Source of the DNA: an uncultured Hoeflea sp.
GTDB taxonomy: Bacteria; Pseudomonadota; Alphaproteobacteria; Rhizobiales; Rhizobiaceae
Reading direction: 5' to 3'
Assembly (NCBI RefSeq): GCF_947501405.1
Contig: NZ_CANMVK010000001.1
Span: 1,054,001 to 1,118,000 of the forward strand
DNA length: 64,000 nucleotides
Under the pieces are notes generated by a model, which did not search any database, had not been told where the DNA came from, and saw only the letters and a program-made list of their open reading frames with translations. The translations under genes and the position numbers were made by a program. Of this stretch, positions 20,081 to 26,940 are shown piece after piece. How positions within the stretch are numbered: position 1 is the stretch's first letter; every line of letters begins with the position of its first letter.

Positions 20081-20440
20081 ATCCATCCGTTGTAGGCCAG
20101 CACCGGTTGAAATCGGTCGAACCAAGGGCGCGGAGTGTGGCGTTCTTTTCAAGCCTCCAAAACCTGATTTTCAGGAGTTCGGCAACCTGTGACAACGCTT
20201 TCGCGGATTGGTGATGGTCGGCCACCGATCAATTGCGACCGGGATGGCAGGTGTGGACGGGGGAGAGCCTGTCGTGGACGACTAGCACCGGCCATTGGTG
20301 CGTCCGCGACAGCGTTTCACGACCTATTTGCTGCCTACATGGTGGGCAGATTGTGTGGGCTGCCAAAATTTCGGGCTGTTTGCGGCGGATGAATGGCTAT
20401 CGCTGGCGAAAAACTGAGGCGAAATCAGCAAGACGAGCCT
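20081..20440. other. long upstream region of the guanidine operon, no gene seen
   Basis: Short open frames here resemble no protein. The stretch lies upstream of the sigma54-type promoter, where enhancer-binding sites would be expected. The one clear structure is a nested dyad at 20270-20311. Confidence 0.5.
20270..20311. repeat. nested inverted repeat, candidate enhancer site
   Basis: Outer arms TGTCGTGGACG (20270-20280) and CGTCCGCGACA (20301-20311) match at 10 of 11 positions as an inverted repeat. Inside is a second perfect dyad, GCACC-N7-GGTGC (20285-20301). The inner dyad resembles an NtrC box (GCACC-N5-GGTGC) but is two bases wider. It lies about 180 bases before the predicted transcription start, a typical distance for a sigma54 activator. 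Confidence 0.5.
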
Positions 20441-20451
20441 TTGTGGAAGGC

Positions 20452-20467
20452 TGGCACGGCCCTTGCT
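20452..20467 (+). promoter_or_regulatory. sigma54 (RpoN) promoter of the guanidine operon
   Basis: TGGCACG-N4-TTGCT is an exact match to the RpoN -24/-12 consensus TGGCACG-N4-TTGCW, with correct GG-to-GC spacing. Transcription would begin near 20478, just before the riboswitch aptamer at about 20484. This implies dependence on an enhancer-binding activator, most simply nitrogen control by NtrC. Confidence 0.8.
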
Positions 20468-20483
20468 TGGTTGTTGGGGTGCA

Positions 20484-20580
20484 GCGCGCCTAGGGTTCCG
20501 GTTTCATCTTTGAAACGCTGGTCCGAGAGGCGCAAGCCACTTTCGGGTGGTGACACGGCGGGCCAAAATCCCGGGAGAAC
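20484..20580 (+). promoter_or_regulatory. guanidine-I (ykkC) riboswitch
   Basis: All conserved aptamer blocks appear in order: CTAGGGTTCCG (20490-20500), a small hairpin GTTTCA...TGAAAC (20501-20516), CTGGTCCGAGAG (20518-20529), a hairpin CCAC...GGTGG (20537-20550), ACACGG (20553-20558), then AAAATCCCGGGAGA (20565-20578). This class binds free guanidinium and turns on guanidine transport and degradation genes. It sits 117 bases upstream of an ABC-importer/guanidine-hydrolase operon. The following segment supplies the expression platform. Confidence 0.95.
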
Positions 20581-20592
20581 ACTGCACAGGTT

Positions 20593-20623
20593 TGCGCACG
20601 CAGACCTCCTCCCGGTGTGCGCA
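20593..20623 (+). promoter_or_regulatory. candidate riboswitch expression-platform hairpin
   Basis: TGCGCAC (20593-20599) pairs with GTGCGCA (20617-20623) around a 17-base loop holding CCTCCTCCC, a pyrimidine run that could mask purine-rich elements. No T-run follows, so translational control, or an anti-terminator not visible to me, is more likely than simple termination. Role inferred. Confidence 0.4.
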
Positions 20624-20696
20624 TTCCAAGGTTGAAAACCGTTCTTGACGACGGTGCAACGGGGCCGAACCGGCGCCCAAACAACAGGAAAGGCGT

Positions 20697-21767
20697 ATGC
20701 ACATGTTCCTCAAATCCCTCAAAGCGATGGGTCTGGCCGCCATGATGGCGCTGCCGGCCGCACAAATGTCGACTGCCGCGGCCGAGACCAAAAGCGAGTT
20801 CAAGGTTTGCTGGTCAATCTATGTCGGCTGGATGCCATGGGGCTATCTGCAGGACAGCGGCATCATGAAGAAATGGGCCGACAAATACGACATCAGCGTC
20901 GATATCGTTCAGATCAACGACTATGTGGAATCCATCAACCAGTACACCGCGGGCGGCTATGACGGCTGCTCGATGACCAATATGGATGCGCTGTCGATTC
21001 CGGCTGGCGGCGGCGTCGACACCACGGCGCTGATTGTCGGCGACTTCTCCAACGGCAATGACGGGATCGTGCTCAAGGACAAGGCCGCGCTGGCCGACAT
21101 CAAAGGCCAGAATGTCAATCTGGTCGAGCTCTCGGTGTCGCATTACCTCCTGGCGCGCGCGCTTGAAGGCGCGGGCATGTCCGAACGCGACGTAACGGTG
21201 GTCAATACATCTGACGCCGACATGGTTGCCGCCTATTCGACGCCGGATGTCACATCCGTGGTGACATGGAATCCGCTTTTGTCTGAGATCGAGGCAATGC
21301 CTGGATCCACCAAGGTTTTCGACTCCTCGAAGATCCCGGGCGAAATCATCGACGTGATGATGGTCAACACCGAGACCCTGGCGGACAATCCGGATTTCGG
21401 AAAGGCGCTCACCGGGGCCTGGTATGAGGTGATGGGATTGCTGGCAGCCGAAGACGCGACCGCGCTGGAGGCCATGGCAACGGCATCGGGCACCGATGTG
21501 GCCGGCTTCAAGGCGCAGCTGGCGACCACCAAGATGTTCTACACGCCGGCGGACGCGGTGGCTTTCACCCAGGATGCGCAACTGCCGCTCACCACCAAAT
21601 TCGTGGCCGAGTTCCTGTTCGACAAGGGCATTTTGGGCGAGGGCGCGCCGAGCCCCGAATTTGTCGGTGTGGCGTTTCCAGATGGCTCGATTTACGGCGA
21701 CGCCCAAAATGTGAAGCTGCGGTTTGACGCCACCTACATGCAGATGGCTGCCGACGGCGCGCTCTAG
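20697..21767 (+). CDS. ABC transporter substrate-binding protein, probable guanidine uptake
   Basis: 356 residues with a signal peptide (cleaved near residue 28, AAAETKSEF) and a NitT/TauT (NMT1/SsuA-like) binding-protein body: VCWSIYVGWMPWGY, GGYDGCSMTNMDALSIPAGG, SVSHYLLARALEGAG. This family serves nitrate, taurine and sulfonate importers. Here the guanidine-I riboswitch and downstream hydrolase point to guanidine or a guanidino compound. AGGAAAGG precedes the start; ATG 20697 and ATG 20703 are both usable. First gene of the operon. Confidence 0.88.
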   Translation: MHMFLKSLKAMGLAAMMALPAAQMSTAAAETKSEFKVCWSIYVGWMPWGYLQDSGIMKKWADKYDISVDIVQINDYVESINQYTAGGYDGCSMTNMDALSIPAGGGVDTTALIVGDFSNGNDGIVLKDKAALADIKGQNVNLVELSVSHYLLARALEGAGMSERDVTVVNTSDADMVAAYSTPDVTSVVTWNPLLSEIEAMPGSTKVFDSSKIPGEIIDVMMVNTETLADNPDFGKALTGAWYEVMGLLAAEDATALEAMATASGTDVAGFKAQLATTKMFYTPADAVAFTQDAQLPLTTKFVAEFLFDKGILGEGAPSPEFVGVAFPDGSIYGDAQNVKLRFDATYMQMAADGAL

Positions 21768-21791
21768 CCCATTTTCGGCCATCCCCTGACA

Positions 21792-21816
21792 CCTGCCGGG
21801 TAAACGGCCCGGCAGG
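21792..21816 (+). promoter_or_regulatory. intercistronic hairpin after the binding-protein gene
   Basis: A perfect 9-bp stem (CCTGCCGGG / CCCGGCAGG) with a 7-base loop, 24 bases past the stop of the binding-protein gene and without a T-run. Such hairpins commonly stabilise the upstream mRNA so that the periplasmic protein is made in excess over permease and ATPase. Confidence 0.6.
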
Positions 21817-21843
21817 TTCAGCCCCAATACAGGCGTCGTGCTC

Positions 21844-22665
21844 ATGCGCATCATCAATCGCAGACCCTCGAGGTTTTCCGGCTTCTTTCTCGCCGCGATC
21901 CCCTTCATCGCCGTGGTCGTCGTCTACATGATCGCCAGCAGGCAGCGGCTTGCCGAAAATCCGGCGGACAAGTTGCTGCCTTCGTTTCAAAGCATGGGAT
22001 CGGCGTTTTGGCGCATGGCTTTCGAGCCGGACAGGCGCTCGGGCGACTATCTGTTGTGGCTGGACACGCTGGACAGCCTCTGGCGGCTCGGCATCGGCAT
22101 GGCGATCGCCACCGCTCTGGCGCTTGTAATCGGGCTGCTGATCGGTTTCATTCCGCATGTCCGCTCGGCGCTTGCACCTTTCGTGGCGACATTTTCGCTA
22201 ATTCCGCCGATCACCATCTTGCCGATCCTGTTCATCGTGTTCGGGCTTGGTGAGGCGGCCAAGGTCGCGTTGATCGTGGCCGGGACTGCGCCGGTAATGA
22301 TCCGCTCGACCGCGCAGGCGGTGATGACCATCCCGCGTGAGATGATCATCAAGGCGGAAACCCTCGGCGCCAGCGTCTGGCAAATGTTGACGCGCCTGGT
22401 GTTGCCGCAGACGTTGCCGGGATTGATCAACTCGATCCGGCTGGCGCTGGTGCCGGCCTGGATTTTCCTGATTTCGGCGGAGGCGATCGCGTCTACCACC
22501 GGGCTCGGCTACAGGATCTTTCTGGTCCGCCGCTATCTGGCGATGGATGTGATCCTACCTTACGTGATCTGGATTACGCTCCTGGCCTTCATCCTCGACC
22601 GGCTGCTGCTGGTGATCTCGCGCCGCGCCTTCCCGTGGTTCCATCTTAATGGGGAGAGCCTGTGA
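21844..22665 (+). CDS. ABC transporter permease, probable guanidine uptake
   Basis: 273 residues, about six membrane segments. The EAA loop that contacts the ATPase is near residues 170-190 (KAETLGASVWQMLTRLVLP). NitT/TauT-type (SsuC/TauC-like) permease, matching its binding protein. Start ATG 21844; a GTG two codons earlier is possible. The last codon overlaps the ATPase start (GTGA), so the two are translationally coupled. Inner-membrane channel subunit. Confidence 0.88.
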   Translation: MRIINRRPSRFSGFFLAAIPFIAVVVVYMIASRQRLAENPADKLLPSFQSMGSAFWRMAFEPDRRSGDYLLWLDTLDSLWRLGIGMAIATALALVIGLLIGFIPHVRSALAPFVATFSLIPPITILPILFIVFGLGEAAKVALIVAGTAPVMIRSTAQAVMTIPREMIIKAETLGASVWQMLTRLVLPQTLPGLINSIRLALVPAWIFLISAEAIASTTGLGYRIFLVRRYLAMDVILPYVIWITLLAFILDRLLLVISRRAFPWFHLNGESL

Positions 22666-23483
22666 GCGCGCCCGATCCCCAGGTTCCGCCGCAGGTGGTG
22701 GTGCGCAACCTTGGCAAGTCCTACGGCGATACCCTGGTGCTCGAGCGCGTGAACCTTGAGATCGCGCCCAACAGTTTTTGCACCATCGTCGGCGCGTCGG
22801 GCTGCGGCAAGTCGACATTCCTGCGCATGCTGTTGTCGCAGGAAGCGCCGACCCGTGGCAGCATCCTGGTCGATGGCGAGCCATTGCCGCGCGAACCGAC
22901 GCCGGATCGCGGCATTGTGTTTCAGCGTTACTCGGTGTTCTCCCATCTCACGGTCGAGGACAATCTGCTGCTGGCGGCCGAATTCGAAGCTTCTCCCGCA
23001 ATCGGCAGGCTGTTTGGCGCCGCCCGCCGGACCGCGATGCAGGAAATTGAAGAGACGCTGGAGAAAATCGGGCTTGCGCCGGCGCGCAAGCGCTACCCAT
23101 CACAGCTCTCGGGCGGCATGCAGCAACGCCTGGCCATCGCCCAGGCGCTACTCAAGAAACCGAAGATCCTGCTGCTCGACGAACCGTTCGGCGCGCTCGA
23201 TCCCGGCATTCGCGCTGACATGCATGAGCTTCTCGACCAGTTGTGGAAAGAGCTTGGCATGACGGTTTTCATGGTGACCCACGACATCAACGAAGCCTTC
23301 AAACTCGGCACCCGCATGCTGGTGTTCGACAAGACCCGCCATGATCCGCATGCGCCGGATCGCTACGGCGCCACCATCACCTATGACCTTCCGCTCAATG
23401 CCGGAGCAAAGGGGCGGGCGCCTCCGGTCTCCGAACTCTTTGCCAATCCCAAACAGCCTCTCCACAAAGGAACAAGACCATGA
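22662..23483 (+). CDS. ABC transporter ATP-binding protein, probable guanidine uptake
   Basis: 273 residues. Walker A GASGCGKST (about 43-51), Q-loop VFQRYSVFSHLTVEDN, signature LSGGMQQRLAIAQAL, Walker B ILLLDEPFGALD, switch His in VTHDINEAF. It begins with GTG inside the permease stop and ends in an ATGA overlap with the hydrolase gene. Powers the NitT/TauT-type importer from the cytosolic face. The unbroken coupling to the hydrolase implies that import and hydrolysis are made together. Confidence 0.92.
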   Translation: MSAPDPQVPPQVVVRNLGKSYGDTLVLERVNLEIAPNSFCTIVGASGCGKSTFLRMLLSQEAPTRGSILVDGEPLPREPTPDRGIVFQRYSVFSHLTVEDNLLLAAEFEASPAIGRLFGAARRTAMQEIEETLEKIGLAPARKRYPSQLSGGMQQRLAIAQALLKKPKILLLDEPFGALDPGIRADMHELLDQLWKELGMTVFMVTHDINEAFKLGTRMLVFDKTRHDPHAPDRYGATITYDLPLNAGAKGRAPPVSELFANPKQPLHKGTRP

Positions 23484-24742
23484 AAGATCTTCTGCCAACC
23501 GGTCCCGCGCGCGCCTCGCGAAAGGCGGGGTCCGTCGACCGCGCGGCGCCCGTCCGGCGCCATCACCCCGATTTCGACAAGCTGAACATGCGCGGCTGGA
23601 AGGCCGCTGAGAAAGAGGCCGAACTTCCTTCGGCCGCGTGGCAGAAGGAAAAGCAATGGGCCTTGCGCATGGGCTTGACCGGTTCCCAGTCGCTGACCGA
23701 CAAGTCGATCCCGACGTTCGCGCGCGGCGAACTGCCCCATTATGCAGGCATAAACACCTTCCTCAAGGCGCCTTACATCGAGGATGTGACAAAGGTCGGG
23801 GCCTATGATGCCGCGATCATCGGCATCCCGTTTGATGGCGGGACGACCTACCGGCCAGGCACCCGGTTCGGCCCCCAGGGGGTGCGCAAGATTTCGGCGC
23901 TCTACACGCCCTATAATTACGAGATGGGCGTCGATCTGCGCGAGCAGATGACGCTCTGCGATGTCGGCGATGTGTTCACCATCCCGGCCAATATCGAAAA
24001 GACCTTCGACCAGATCACGCGGGCGGTCAGCCATGTGGTGTCTTCGGGCGCCTTGCCGATCATGATCGGCGGCGATCACTCGATCGGCTTTCCTTGCGTG
24101 CGCGGGATTGCCAATTGCACATCCAAACGTATCGGCATCGTCCATTTCGACCGTCACATCGACATCCAGGAAAAGGATCTCGACGAACGCATGCACACCA
24201 CGCCGTGGTTTCACGCGACCGATCTCGTCAATGTGCCGGCGGTCAATCTGGTCCAGGTCGGCATCGGCGGCTGGCAGGTGCCGCGCGAGGGTGTGGAAAT
24301 CGCCCGGCAACGCAACACCAACATCTTCACCATGCGCGACATCGAGGAACTTGGGCTTGCCGAGACCGCCGCCCGGGCGCTCGAACTGGCCTGGAAGGAT
24401 GCGGACGCCGTCTATATTTCATTTGACATCGACAGTGTGGATTGCGGCTTCGTGCCCGGGACCGGATGGCCGGAGCCCGGCGGGTTCCTGCCGCGCGAAG
24501 CGCTGGAGCTGGTGTCACTGGTCGCCAAGGAAGGGATTTGCGGACTGGAAGTGGTTGAGGTGTCGCCGCCCTATGATCAGTCGGAGATCACCGCATTGCT
24601 GGCCACCCGGGTCATTGTCGATGTGCTTGGCACGCTGGTGAGCCACGGCAAGATGGGCGCCCACAAGCACATCATCGATAAGCCGGTCTCGATCCCCGCC
24701 GGGCCGGATGTCGACGGTCAGGGATGGGGGACGAACCCATGA
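23480..24742 (+). CDS. gdmH: guanidine hydrolase-like ureohydrolase (agmatinase/arginase fold)
   Basis: 420 residues, longer than agmatinases by an N-terminal extension of about 100 residues. Likely dinuclear-metal ligands: His200 (GGDHSIG), Asp224/His226/Asp228 (HFDRHIDIQ) and Asp316/Asp318 (SFDIDSVD). GTGWPEPGG and HTTPWFHAT recall the Ni2+-dependent guanidine hydrolase GdmH of cyanobacteria, which makes urea and ammonia from guanidine. The riboswitch upstream and the His-rich neighbour support this over agmatinase. DRHID replaces the usual DAHxD of ureohydrolases. Symbol by inference. Coupled by ATGA overlaps on both sides. Confidence 0.82.
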   Translation: MKDLLPTGPARASRKAGSVDRAAPVRRHHPDFDKLNMRGWKAAEKEAELPSAAWQKEKQWALRMGLTGSQSLTDKSIPTFARGELPHYAGINTFLKAPYIEDVTKVGAYDAAIIGIPFDGGTTYRPGTRFGPQGVRKISALYTPYNYEMGVDLREQMTLCDVGDVFTIPANIEKTFDQITRAVSHVVSSGALPIMIGGDHSIGFPCVRGIANCTSKRIGIVHFDRHIDIQEKDLDERMHTTPWFHATDLVNVPAVNLVQVGIGGWQVPREGVEIARQRNTNIFTMRDIEELGLAETAARALELAWKDADAVYISFDIDSVDCGFVPGTGWPEPGGFLPREALELVSLVAKEGICGLEVVEVSPPYDQSEITALLATRVIVDVLGTLVSHGKMGAHKHIIDKPVSIPAGPDVDGQGWGTNP

Positions 24743-25209
24743 CGCCTGATCGCCACAGCGATGATCACGCCCGGGACCATACGCATCATGACCATGATCA
24801 TGATCACGCGCATGGACCCGGACACAATCATGCTCACGGCCATGATCACCTGCATTCACATCTGCATGGCGACAGCGCCTATGAGCGATCGCAGGAGATC
24901 AAGGTTCTGGCGACCGCCTTTGTCGAGGGATTCCGCGCCGCGCAGGACAAGAACAGCTACCTGCGGCTGGCGAACATCCCGTTTCAGCGCACCGGCAGTG
25001 ATGGGCTGAGGATGCATCTGGTCGACGCCATCATCGTCTCGAACTGGCAGATCGGCACCGCTTCGCCGGCGTTCGGTTCGCGCGAGCTGTCTTACATGGC
25101 CTATCCCGGCAACATGGTGAGCGAGCGCGAAACCATGACCTTTACCTATGTCTCGCTCAGCGAACGGGCGGACATAGACCTTGTCGACATCCTGAAAACC
25201 CGAACATGA
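24739..25209 (+). CDS. His-rich protein of unknown family, candidate nickel chaperone for the hydrolase
   Basis: 156 residues; ATG overlaps the hydrolase stop by 4 bases. Residues 1-43 contain 17 histidines, mostly as HD/HG/HA pairs, a clear metal-binding tail like those of nickel storage or delivery proteins. The rest (about 46-156: AERSQ-type helix, LRLANIPFQRTG, MHLVDAIIVSNWQIGTA, SYMAYPGNMVS) is a compact alpha/beta domain I do not recognise; it has no P-loop and no HypA zinc motif. Position suggests it loads or stores Ni2+ for the hydrolase. An in-frame ATG at 24724 is an alternative start. Confidence 0.8.
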   Translation: MTPDRHSDDHARDHTHHDHDHDHAHGPGHNHAHGHDHLHSHLHGDSAYERSQEIKVLATAFVEGFRAAQDKNSYLRLANIPFQRTGSDGLRMHLVDAIIVSNWQIGTASPAFGSRELSYMAYPGNMVSERETMTFTYVSLSERADIDLVDILKTRT

Positions 25210-25226
25210 CCCTGAAAGGACCATCG

Positions 25227-25481
25227 ATGAAACTCAATCTTGTCACGCTCTCGACCCCGCTTGCCTTGCTGACCCCGGCCACGGCGCTGGCCCATCCCGG
25301 TGAACACGGCGCTCATGATCTCGGCGGCATGCTCGTCCACATCGCCGGATCACCGTTTCATGTGGTGATGTTGGTGTCGGTTCCGGTGCTCGCCCTGTTG
25401 GTTTGGCGGCTGTTCGCTCGCCGCTCCTCGCAACCAGCGCGCTCACGGACGCCGCGGGGCCGCGATCTTCCGCGGCGTTGA
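25227..25481 (+). CDS. small His-bearing membrane protein
   Basis: 84 residues: a signal peptide (LALLTPATALA) exposing HPGEHGAH at the mature N-terminus, then a membrane segment (about 43-62, FHVVMLVSVPVLALLVW), then an Arg-rich cytosolic tail. The HPGxH start recalls HupE/UreJ nickel permeases, but the protein is far shorter. ATG 25227 has AAGGA at good spacing; an in-frame ATG at 25206 overlaps the previous stop. Last gene of the operon; a periplasmic metal-binding role is a guess. Confidence 0.65.
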   Translation: MKLNLVTLSTPLALLTPATALAHPGEHGAHDLGGMLVHIAGSPFHVVMLVSVPVLALLVWRLFARRSSQPARSRTPRGRDLPRR

Positions 25482-25556: not shown

Positions 25557-25991
25557 TTACGCGGCAATGCCGGTTCGCGCATTGGTCAGCATCAGTGCGG
25601 CTTCCGCGGCCTCGCGGCCCTTGAGGACAAAATGATCCCGGTAGATTGCAATGTGGTGCTCGGTCTCCTGATAGTGATGCGGTGTCAGCGAGATGGAAAG
25701 CACCGGCACGTTGGTTTCCAGGCCTGCCTGCATCAGGCCGTTGACGACCGCCTGGGCAACGAAATCATGGCGGTAGATGCCGCCGTCGACCACCAGAGCC
25801 GCGGCCGCGACGGCGAGATAGCGCCCGGATTTTGCCAGGTTGCGCGCCATCAGCGGCAATTCGAAGGCACCGGGCGCGTCGAAGACGTCGATCCGGTCTG
25901 CCGGTATGGTGTGCTGAAAGCCGACCAAGGCCTGGCTGACAATGTCTGAATGCCAGTTTGCCTTGATGAAAGCATATCGGGTGGGTGTCAT
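25557..25991 (-). CDS. ribH2: 6,7-dimethyl-8-ribityllumazine synthase, type II
   Basis: 144 residues: start MTPTRYAFIKANWHSDIV, conserved FDAPGAFELPLMARNLA and the catalytic-loop segment SISLTPHHYQE. It condenses the ribityl pyrimidine with dihydroxybutanone phosphate in riboflavin synthesis. The sequence resembles the decameric RibH2 of Brucella and Mesorhizobium rather than the icosahedral RibH1. AAAGGAG precedes the ATG, and an FMN riboswitch lies 79 bases upstream. It stands apart from any other rib gene here. Confidence 0.93.
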   Translation of the reverse strand: MTPTRYAFIKANWHSDIVSQALVGFQHTIPADRIDVFDAPGAFELPLMARNLAKSGRYLAVAAAALVVDGGIYRHDFVAQAVVNGLMQAGLETNVPVLSISLTPHHYQETEHHIAIYRDHFVLKGREAAEAALMLTNARTGIAA

Positions 25992-26041
25992 GATGATCTC
26001 CTTTCGCAACGACACGTCACCCAAGGCGATCACATGCAAAG

Positions 26042-26472: not shown

Positions 26473-26808
26473 TTAGTGCACGGCGAAATCGGACATTGAA
26501 TTGATCACAATGATCCCGGCGGTAATCAGCGCCAGTCCGACAATGGCTGCGAGGTCAAGCCGCTGCCCGAAGAAGAGGAGGCCCGCCAGCACGACGACGA
26601 TGATGCCAAGCCCTGAAGCCAGCGCATAGGTTATGCCCATCGGCATGTGTTTGAGCGCAAGGGCGAGGAAATAGAACGAACTCGCAAAGCCTGCCACCAC
26701 CAGCAATGAGGGCCACAGCCGGGTCATTTGCGCGCTGGCATTGAGTGCGGAATACCCTACGGCCTCAGTGATGACGGAGGCGATGAGGTAGAAGTAGTGT
26801 GTCGGCAA
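26473..26808 (-). CDS. small multidrug resistance (SMR) family transporter
   Basis: 111 residues, four membrane helices, EmrE-length. The membrane glutamate is present (VITEAVG, as EmrE Glu14), and TRLWPSLL and FGQRLDLAAIVGLALI match EmrE closely, placing it in the Qac rather than the guanidinium-exporting Gdx branch. The position of EmrE Trp63 (AIWSGVG) is Ala here (YALASGLG). The preferred start is TTG 26808, with AGGAG about 9 bases upstream; ATG 26850 would add 14 non-family residues. Divergent from a LytTR membrane regulator. Confidence 0.8.
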   Translation of the reverse strand: MPTHYFYLIASVITEAVGYSALNASAQMTRLWPSLLVVAGFASSFYFLALALKHMPMGITYALASGLGIIVVVLAGLLFFGQRLDLAAIVGLALITAGIIVINSMSDFAVH

Positions 26809-26940
26809 AATAATGGTCTCCTGTGTGGGTGATAAGGCGGCAGCGCTCACGTGGTCTTCCGGCGCCAGCTTCGTTGCGGGTTCGACGCTGCATCGCTAGC
26901 ATTCAGGCGGAGCTTGAGAAACGGGTTTGGCGTCAACGAC

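Follow-up and report, generated by a model that had tools for sequence, protein, structure and literature searches.

The window analysed here, a stretch of 64,000 nucleotides from an uncultured Hoeflea sp. (contig NZ_CANMVK010000001.1), contains a Guanidine-I riboswitch followed by six genes on the same strand. These genes encode an ATP-binding cassette (ABC) importer, a hydrolase resembling the guanidinase GdmH, a histidine-rich protein (gene 5, P5) and a small membrane protein (gene 6, P6). We consider it likely that they form a guanidine-induced nitrogen-scavenging operon in which P5 serves as a dedicated nickel-loading factor for GdmH, replacing HypA/HypB in Alphaproteobacteria. The features of the locus are as follows (RBS, ribosome-binding site).

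20479-20579, + strand: Guanidine-I aptamer (RF00442), found by cmscan of the full window against Rfam; 78.5 bits, gathering score 63
20571-20705, + strand: probable translational expression platform, proposed from conserved complementarity
20571-20577, + strand: platform strand, the aptamer 3' strand
20583-20588, + strand: platform strand, UGCACA
20609-20615, + strand: platform strand, the anti-aptamer CUCCCGG
20616-20622, + strand: platform strand, UGUGCGC
20693-20699, + strand: platform strand, RBS-to-start GCGUAUG
20697-21767, + strand: binding protein, TIGR03427 (551.5 bits, cut-off 333.9); periplasmic, presumably binding guanidine
21838-22665, + strand: ABC permease, BPD_transp_1 match
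22662-23483, + strand: ABC ATPase, ABC_tran match
23480-24742, + strand: GdmH-like hydrolase of 420 aa, Arginase family (261.9 bits)
24724-25209, + strand: P5, a His-rich N-terminal tail and a core of ~110 aa; no family over cut-off; candidate nickel-loading factor
25206-25481, + strand: P6, small membrane protein; no family over cut-off; the start may be 25227

The RF00442 match (E 2.7e-12) covers the full model, positions 1-107, so the aptamer is complete, and 117 bases separate its end from the first ATG (20697). A search of the whole genome reported 20479-20579 as the sole Guanidine-I match. In the open reading frame list, the six genes form an operon on a single strand with one 70-base gap, and the remaining junctions overlap; an alternative start of P5, the ATG at 24739, overlaps the stop codon of the hydrolase as ATGA. 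The binding protein scores far above the equivalog cut-off of TIGR03427. An initial annotation, made from the sequence without database searches, had described an essentially complete ykkC aptamer 117 bases ahead of six tightly coupled genes, and had named the first three as binding protein, permease and ATPase. These descriptions were borne out, and the covariance search that it proposed gave a score well over the cut-off. Operons combining this riboswitch, an ABC importer and a guanidinase are as such already known (PMC8390497, PMC12186494; here and below, published statements follow the available portions of the cited papers). The new part is the partnership of GdmH with the unnamed P5 family in place of HypA/HypB.

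The hydrolase was compared with all solved structures, and the top two matches were 7esr/7oi1 (542 bits; 64.6% identity, 228/353) and 9fek (523 bits; 60.3% identity, 217/360), which we take to be Synechocystis GdmH and the Nitrospira inopinata guanidinase, respectively. These assignments fit because the published residue numbers match the letters at a constant offset of 2 in both chains. The next matches were proclavaminate amidinohydrolase (177 bits) and guanidinobutyrase (171 bits). By alignment, the metal ligands of the hydrolase are H200, D224, H226, D228, D316 and D318, and its specificity residues are T123, H239, W330 and E360. All ten residues published for N. inopinata, six metal ligands and four specificity residues, are kept, and the equivalents of Thr97 and Trp305 of Synechocystis GdmH are also present (residue set from PMC11410670). 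Among the NCBIfam models, the agmatinase model TIGR01230 was passed by one bit (175.3 against 174.3), and PRK02190 remained below its cut-off. Judged by its sequence and active-site residues, the 420-aa protein is a GdmH-like guanidinase with guanidine as the putative substrate, and its two-metal site is expected to hold Ni2+.

P5 accompanies this enzyme across the genomes compared. Among 297 genomes drawn from the order, the P5 core was found in 31 and GdmH (E 1e-80 or better) in 35; the 31 GdmHs with at least 72% identity are exactly the P5 set, and the remaining four homologues, 52-54% identical, all occur without P5. In maps of 34 of these loci, P5 was always downstream of GdmH and in the same orientation (30 of 30), with the window as the 31st case. 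Of the 31 P5 genomes, 30 have Guanidine-I, and none of the four P5-less GdmH genomes does; in four of those 30 (G072, G214, G215 and G232) the riboswitch lies on another contig than GdmH, where adjacency is undemonstrable.

A second set consisted of 80 named loci, the best 80 of 146 relatives; 79 are from Alphaproteobacteria and one (Bosea sp.) has no class assignment in the table. These loci were chosen by a short P5 motif, so the invariance of that motif comes partly from selection. GdmH lies upstream of P5 on the same strand within ~0.5 kb in 79 of the 80. At the 80th, L148 (Jiella endophytica), GdmH and the importer are ~7 kb away on the same contig and the other strand, and two stretches of this locus overlap identically over 5,729 bases. 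The riboswitch was found in 69 of the 80 with a covariance model built from 25 aptamers, two being cut by the locus edge. The permease was likewise found in 69 loci; of the 11 without it, contig ends truncate L099 and L103, and the locus of L148 is split. The other eight have flank on both sides and show GdmH and P5 with no importer found in the DNA available, which argues that P5 tracks the enzyme and not the importer.

Wider samples gave a similar picture. In 385 genomes drawn from the class, GdmH (E 1e-80) and P5 were found in 13 each and shared by 11, the window's genome included; by coordinates, the two genes adjoin in all 11. The two GdmH-only genomes hold homologues 52-56% identical, and the two P5-only genomes hold apparent operon remnants: in L183 (8781-9394) the beginning of a binding protein continues into the end of P5, and in L182 (7103-7348) an isolated part of the P5 core is left. 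In 279 genomes drawn from the phylum, GdmH and P5 occurred in the same four, three of which had already been counted. A search of 72,556 plasmids turned up 7 records with P5 and 11 with GdmH (E 1e-100). The 7 P5 records are the GdmH records of 72-76% identity, with both genes adjoining by coordinates, and the other four are actinobacterial. On plasmid pNGR234b of Sinorhizobium fredii NGR234, the riboswitch, importer, GdmH, P5 and HupE stand in a row.

The enzymes with and without P5 also differ in their residues. In a tree of 93 rows, one branch (support 100/99) split 82 P5-linked GdmHs from nine P5-less GdmH-like rows; with the two agmatinase-like rows, which sit on very long branches, two changes were counted and a long-branch warning was given. 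All ten guanidinase residues, including the specificity Trp, are kept in 82 of 82 P5-linked rows. In the five alphaproteobacterial P5-less rows, Thr or Ser replaces this Trp, and L184, another genome of this kind, breaks off ahead of the Trp position and was left out of the tree. In the Alphaproteobacteria examined, P5 thus accompanies guanidinases with the full specificity set. Three of the four actinobacterial P5-less rows have the Trp.

L093, L094, L095, L096 and L185 belong to a GdmH-like subfamily, 52-56% identical, that lacks both P5 and the specificity Trp, and Guanidine-I was not found in the four of these five genomes that were searched. P5 was looked for in the subfamily at 52-57% identity and was not found. 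Some P5-less homologues lie near a LysR-like regulator, and two adjoin HupE or another nickel-permease-like gene; one of these neighbours rests on a tblastn match and the others were judged from reading the sequence. On a Rubrobacter indicoceani plasmid (L191, 4055-9245), an agmatinase-family gene that is guanidinase-like and keeps the Trp has genes for a sodium:solute symporter, formamidase and urease as neighbours, and this cluster, too, may convert guanidine to ammonia.

The P5 protein consists of two parts. In 60 members, the tail has a median length of 45 residues and a median His count of 16 (minimum 4); the core (~110 residues, median His count 2) is the conserved part. UreE also has His-rich tails, and HypA has a Cys zinc site; P5 appears to have no HypA-like Cys zinc site, because Cys is absent in 72 of the 80 named P5 proteins. 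In Pfam, the window P5 matched Zip best (E 0.38), followed by ZrgA (E 0.83); its sole NCBIfam match was a nickel/cobalt efflux model (E 0.083), all on the His-rich stretch and far under cut-off. Across the 60 members no Pfam match went below E 0.014; ZrgA and Zip again recurred most often among the weak matches, with five members each. The HypA, HypB and UreE models gave no Pfam match at E <=1 in the 60 members and no NCBIfam match at E <=1 for the window P5. A confident structure was predicted for the core, and it had no useful fold match in the PDB. The annotated record examined lists P5 as a hypothetical protein and the enzyme as an agmatinase family protein; such labels make guanidine use by these bacteria easy to miss. 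Among the papers searched, none joins guanidinase, nickel and histidine-rich, and the portions available name no protein of this kind; the original GdmH paper (10.1038/s41586-022-04490-x) or its supplements may mention P5.

The surroundings of P5 were analyzed with regard to nickel supply. HypA (PF01155) had no match in the window's genome, where HypB, UreE, UreG and nickel uptake genes lay outside the search, and none in 24 of the 31 P5 genomes of the order; in the other seven, it lies on another contig or more than 250 kb from GdmH. In total, HypA was detected in 9 of the 35 GdmH genomes (7 of 31 with P5 and 2 of 4 without), in none of them beside GdmH. By family scans, none of the operon genes is a HypB, for which the genome was not searched. 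P6 has a signal-peptide-like start, one hydrophobic stretch and the motif AHPGxH...H...SPFH. A P6-type protein (62-87 residues, AHxGxH) follows P5 in 17 of the 80 named loci, all of the window's subtype, and 16 of the 17 have the PFH motif. In the other subtype, a permease of the HupE/UreJ type lies just behind P5 in 16 of the 80 loci and upstream in four; the remaining named loci had neither P6 nor HupE by these searches. Judging from position and His content, P6 and HupE may share a role in nickel supply.

Homology of the two is not claimed. As a shortened HupE, P6 gave an hhalign probability of 82% with the signal peptide and 7% without it. The HupE/UreJ model PF04955 had no match in the window P6 and weak matches in 2 of 15 members (best E 0.006). 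The only weak Pfam or NCBIfam match of the window P6 was CbiM (E 0.2), and the weak Pfam matches of P6 members to TrbC, DUF6732 and HupE_UreJ were not trusted.

The leader between the aptamer and the first gene looks like a translational switch, as far as base pairing indicates. At least 7 bases complementary to the aptamer 3' strand were found within 120 bases downstream in 36 of 61 leaders, compared with 3.8% of mononucleotide shuffles, a count inflated by kinship among the leaders. In leaders of the window's subtype, UGCAC just past the aptamer can pair with (C/U)GUGCG over 5-8 bp (G-U allowed) in 20 of 20, a figure without a shuffle control for this ON helix; the outer pair is A-U in 10 leaders, G-C in 9 and a mismatch in 1. 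A possible alternative partner of GUGCGC is GCGCAC or GCGUAC, located between the start codon and the Shine-Dalgarno sequence; this pairing reaches at least 6 bp in 16 of the 20. Shuffles reached this start-site helix in fractions of 0 to 0.345 per leader, and in 0.88 and 1.0 in two poor cases, among them leader L115, for which the wrong stretch was taken for the test.

Without guanidine, CUCCCGG would capture the aptamer strand and GUGCGC would cover the start; with guanidine, GUGCGC would pair upstream and the start would be freed. A transcription terminator was also sought in 20200-21900, and none was found on the + strand; three were predicted on the - strand, where shuffles average 1.6. 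Sequestering of the start site is preferred over a terminator because of this lack of a + strand terminator-like site and the conserved start-site pairing. A consensus scan of 20200-21900 found no sigma-70-like promoter. Stability of the leader folds exceeded that of shuffled sequences to a mild degree only (z -1.3 and -1.8); folded whole, the leader has a minimum-energy structure other than the textbook aptamer. The Guanidine-I class is described as acting on transcription in the available text of PMC11410670, from which the translational mode proposed here would differ.

Taken together, we infer the following course, with guanidine as both ligand and substrate. Guanidine would bind the Guanidine-I aptamer and free the RBS of the first gene, the ABC transporter would import guanidine, and the GdmH-like enzyme would split it into urea and ammonia. 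A urease encoded elsewhere in the genome could then finish the breakdown of urea; a urease alpha match was found there. P5 would gather Ni2+ with its His-rich tail and, docking on GdmH through its conserved core, pass the metal on with no GTPase in the operon, while P6, or the HupE/UreJ-type permease in relatives, may help the nickel supply at the membrane. P5 is probably a dedicated nickel-loading factor for GdmH. A more specific proposal is that P5 represents an undescribed nickel metallochaperone that works without a GTPase, has a fold absent from the PDB, is specific to the alphaproteobacterial guanidinase and does the job of both HypA and HypB; we judge its chances to be even. The metal partners had been expected to differ from the HypA/HypB-like pair in the initial annotation, and the genome comparison strengthened this view, the roles of the partners being putative. 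The operon had also been called self-contained: this holds for import and hydrolysis, which are encoded in it, and fails for urea, which needs the urease from elsewhere.

Several observations weigh against assigning nickel loading to P5. Nickel binding by P5 and its contact with GdmH are themselves inferred, and the P5 sequence resembles no known nickel chaperone. His-rich tails are also found in metal stores, efflux proteins and zinc proteins, and the weak family matches of P5 are of these kinds. Guanidinases without a dedicated loader are described at comammox loci (PMC11410670), and two Rubrobacter plasmid guanidinase genes have no HypA/HypB or P5 within 4 kb, in gene tables that are incomplete. 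With regard to the genome counts, at least 9 of the 80 named loci also belong to the draw from the order, and genomes sharing the operon, via descent or transfer, are not independent. The share of the phylum draw outside the class is not stated, so the absence of P5 elsewhere was barely tested.

Other explanations of P5 were weighed against the same data. P5 could be a nickel buffer or store that gives a local pool or protection without specific docking on GdmH, as a very His-rich, variable tail and an operon without a GTPase partner might suggest. A general store would be expected without GdmH too, whereas P5 without GdmH was seen as apparent remnants only, in 2 of 385 genomes, and the conserved part of P5 is the His-poor core (median 2); we regard a store as unlikely. 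P5 could also stabilise GdmH or be an accessory subunit of it, metal binding then being of secondary importance; the tight linkage of the two would fit this, and so would a conserved core with a confident yet unmatched predicted structure. Nevertheless, the solved guanidinases are each deposited under a single molecule name, the comammox enzyme is active without such a partner (PMC11410670), and every P5 member examined has at least 4 His in its tail, which makes this explanation quite unlikely in our view.

The enzyme itself might act mainly on another guanidino compound, such as methylguanidine, with guanidine as a signal only, since metformin and dimethylguanidine are substrates of related Ni2+-dependent members (PMC11399263). 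This is very unlikely given the conservation of the ten published guanidinase residues, Thr and Trp included, and the riboswitch and TIGR03427 importer, which indicate guanidine. An ordinary agmatinase or guanidinobutyrase operon was the case against which the initial annotation had asked for a profile comparison. Annotated records do name the enzyme agmatinase family, and its best NCBIfam matches are agmatinase models, with TIGR01230 just over cut-off. In the structure comparison, the hydrolase groups with GdmH (542 and 523 bits) and not with guanidinobutyrase (171 bits) or other non-guanidinase chains (<=177 bits), and the specificity residues, riboswitch and importer disagree with this case as well, leaving it next to no likelihood.

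Nickel loading of GdmH thus remains the reading of P5 that we prefer. For the N. inopinata guanidinase, the mechanism of nickel loading is unclear in print (PMC11410670). How guanidinases without HypA/HypB obtain nickel is open in print, and the P5 family, which accompanies the enzyme throughout the Alphaproteobacteria examined, among them the laboratory strain S. fredii NGR234, offers a directly testable answer.

The GdmH-like enzyme is the only guanidine-degrading route recognised in the genome among the two looked for. The urea/guanidine carboxylase model had 16 genome matches, none over cut-off, and at C2:843789-846998 several parts of this model were matched. Downstream of the operon, a lumazine synthase gene (25557-26039, - strand; NF009084, 216 bits against a cut-off of 160) is preceded by a flavin mononucleotide (FMN) riboswitch (RF00050, 26067-26212, - strand, 117.7 bits). 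A gene for a small multidrug-resistance exporter (26473-26850, - strand) lies ~1 kb beyond the operon without its own guanidine riboswitch. It was considered as a guanidine exporter and rejected, its best matches being the Qac and EmrE models, below cut-off.

Known systems resemble this operon in different parts. At the Nitrospira inopinata comammox locus, Guanidine-I and a guanidinase 60% identical occur without adjoining HypA/HypB, as in the window, whereas an APC permease stands in place of the ABC importer, and no dedicated nickel loader is reported in the available text (PMC11410670). The operons of metformin/dimethylguanidine hydrolase (hypA, hypB, two ureohydrolases and hupE) likewise join a Ni-dependent ureohydrolase with dedicated nickel helpers, and HupE adjoins them as it does one fifth of the P5 loci; unlike the window, they encode a heteromeric enzyme and have the HypA/HypB pair (PMC11399263, PMC11271267). 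P6 occupies the same position as the HupE/UreJ permease, and both start with a signal peptide that stops just ahead of an AH-x-G stretch; P6 has ~60-90 residues and a single hydrophobic stretch, and the similarity is lost without the signal peptide. The task proposed for P5 is like that of UreE, HypA and HypB, whereas its sequence matches none of them. The gdmH (sll1077) operon of Synechocystis PCC 6803 shares Guanidine-I, an ABC importer and a GdmH that is 65% identical with the same Thr and Trp. Synechocystis GdmH needs two HypA/HypB-like chaperones (PMC11271267, PMC12186494), and hypA, hypB and ABC genes accompany the riboswitch-controlled homologues of Sll1077 (PMC8390497). Where the Synechocystis operon has these HypA/HypB-like chaperones, the operon in the window has P5 and P6 downstream instead.

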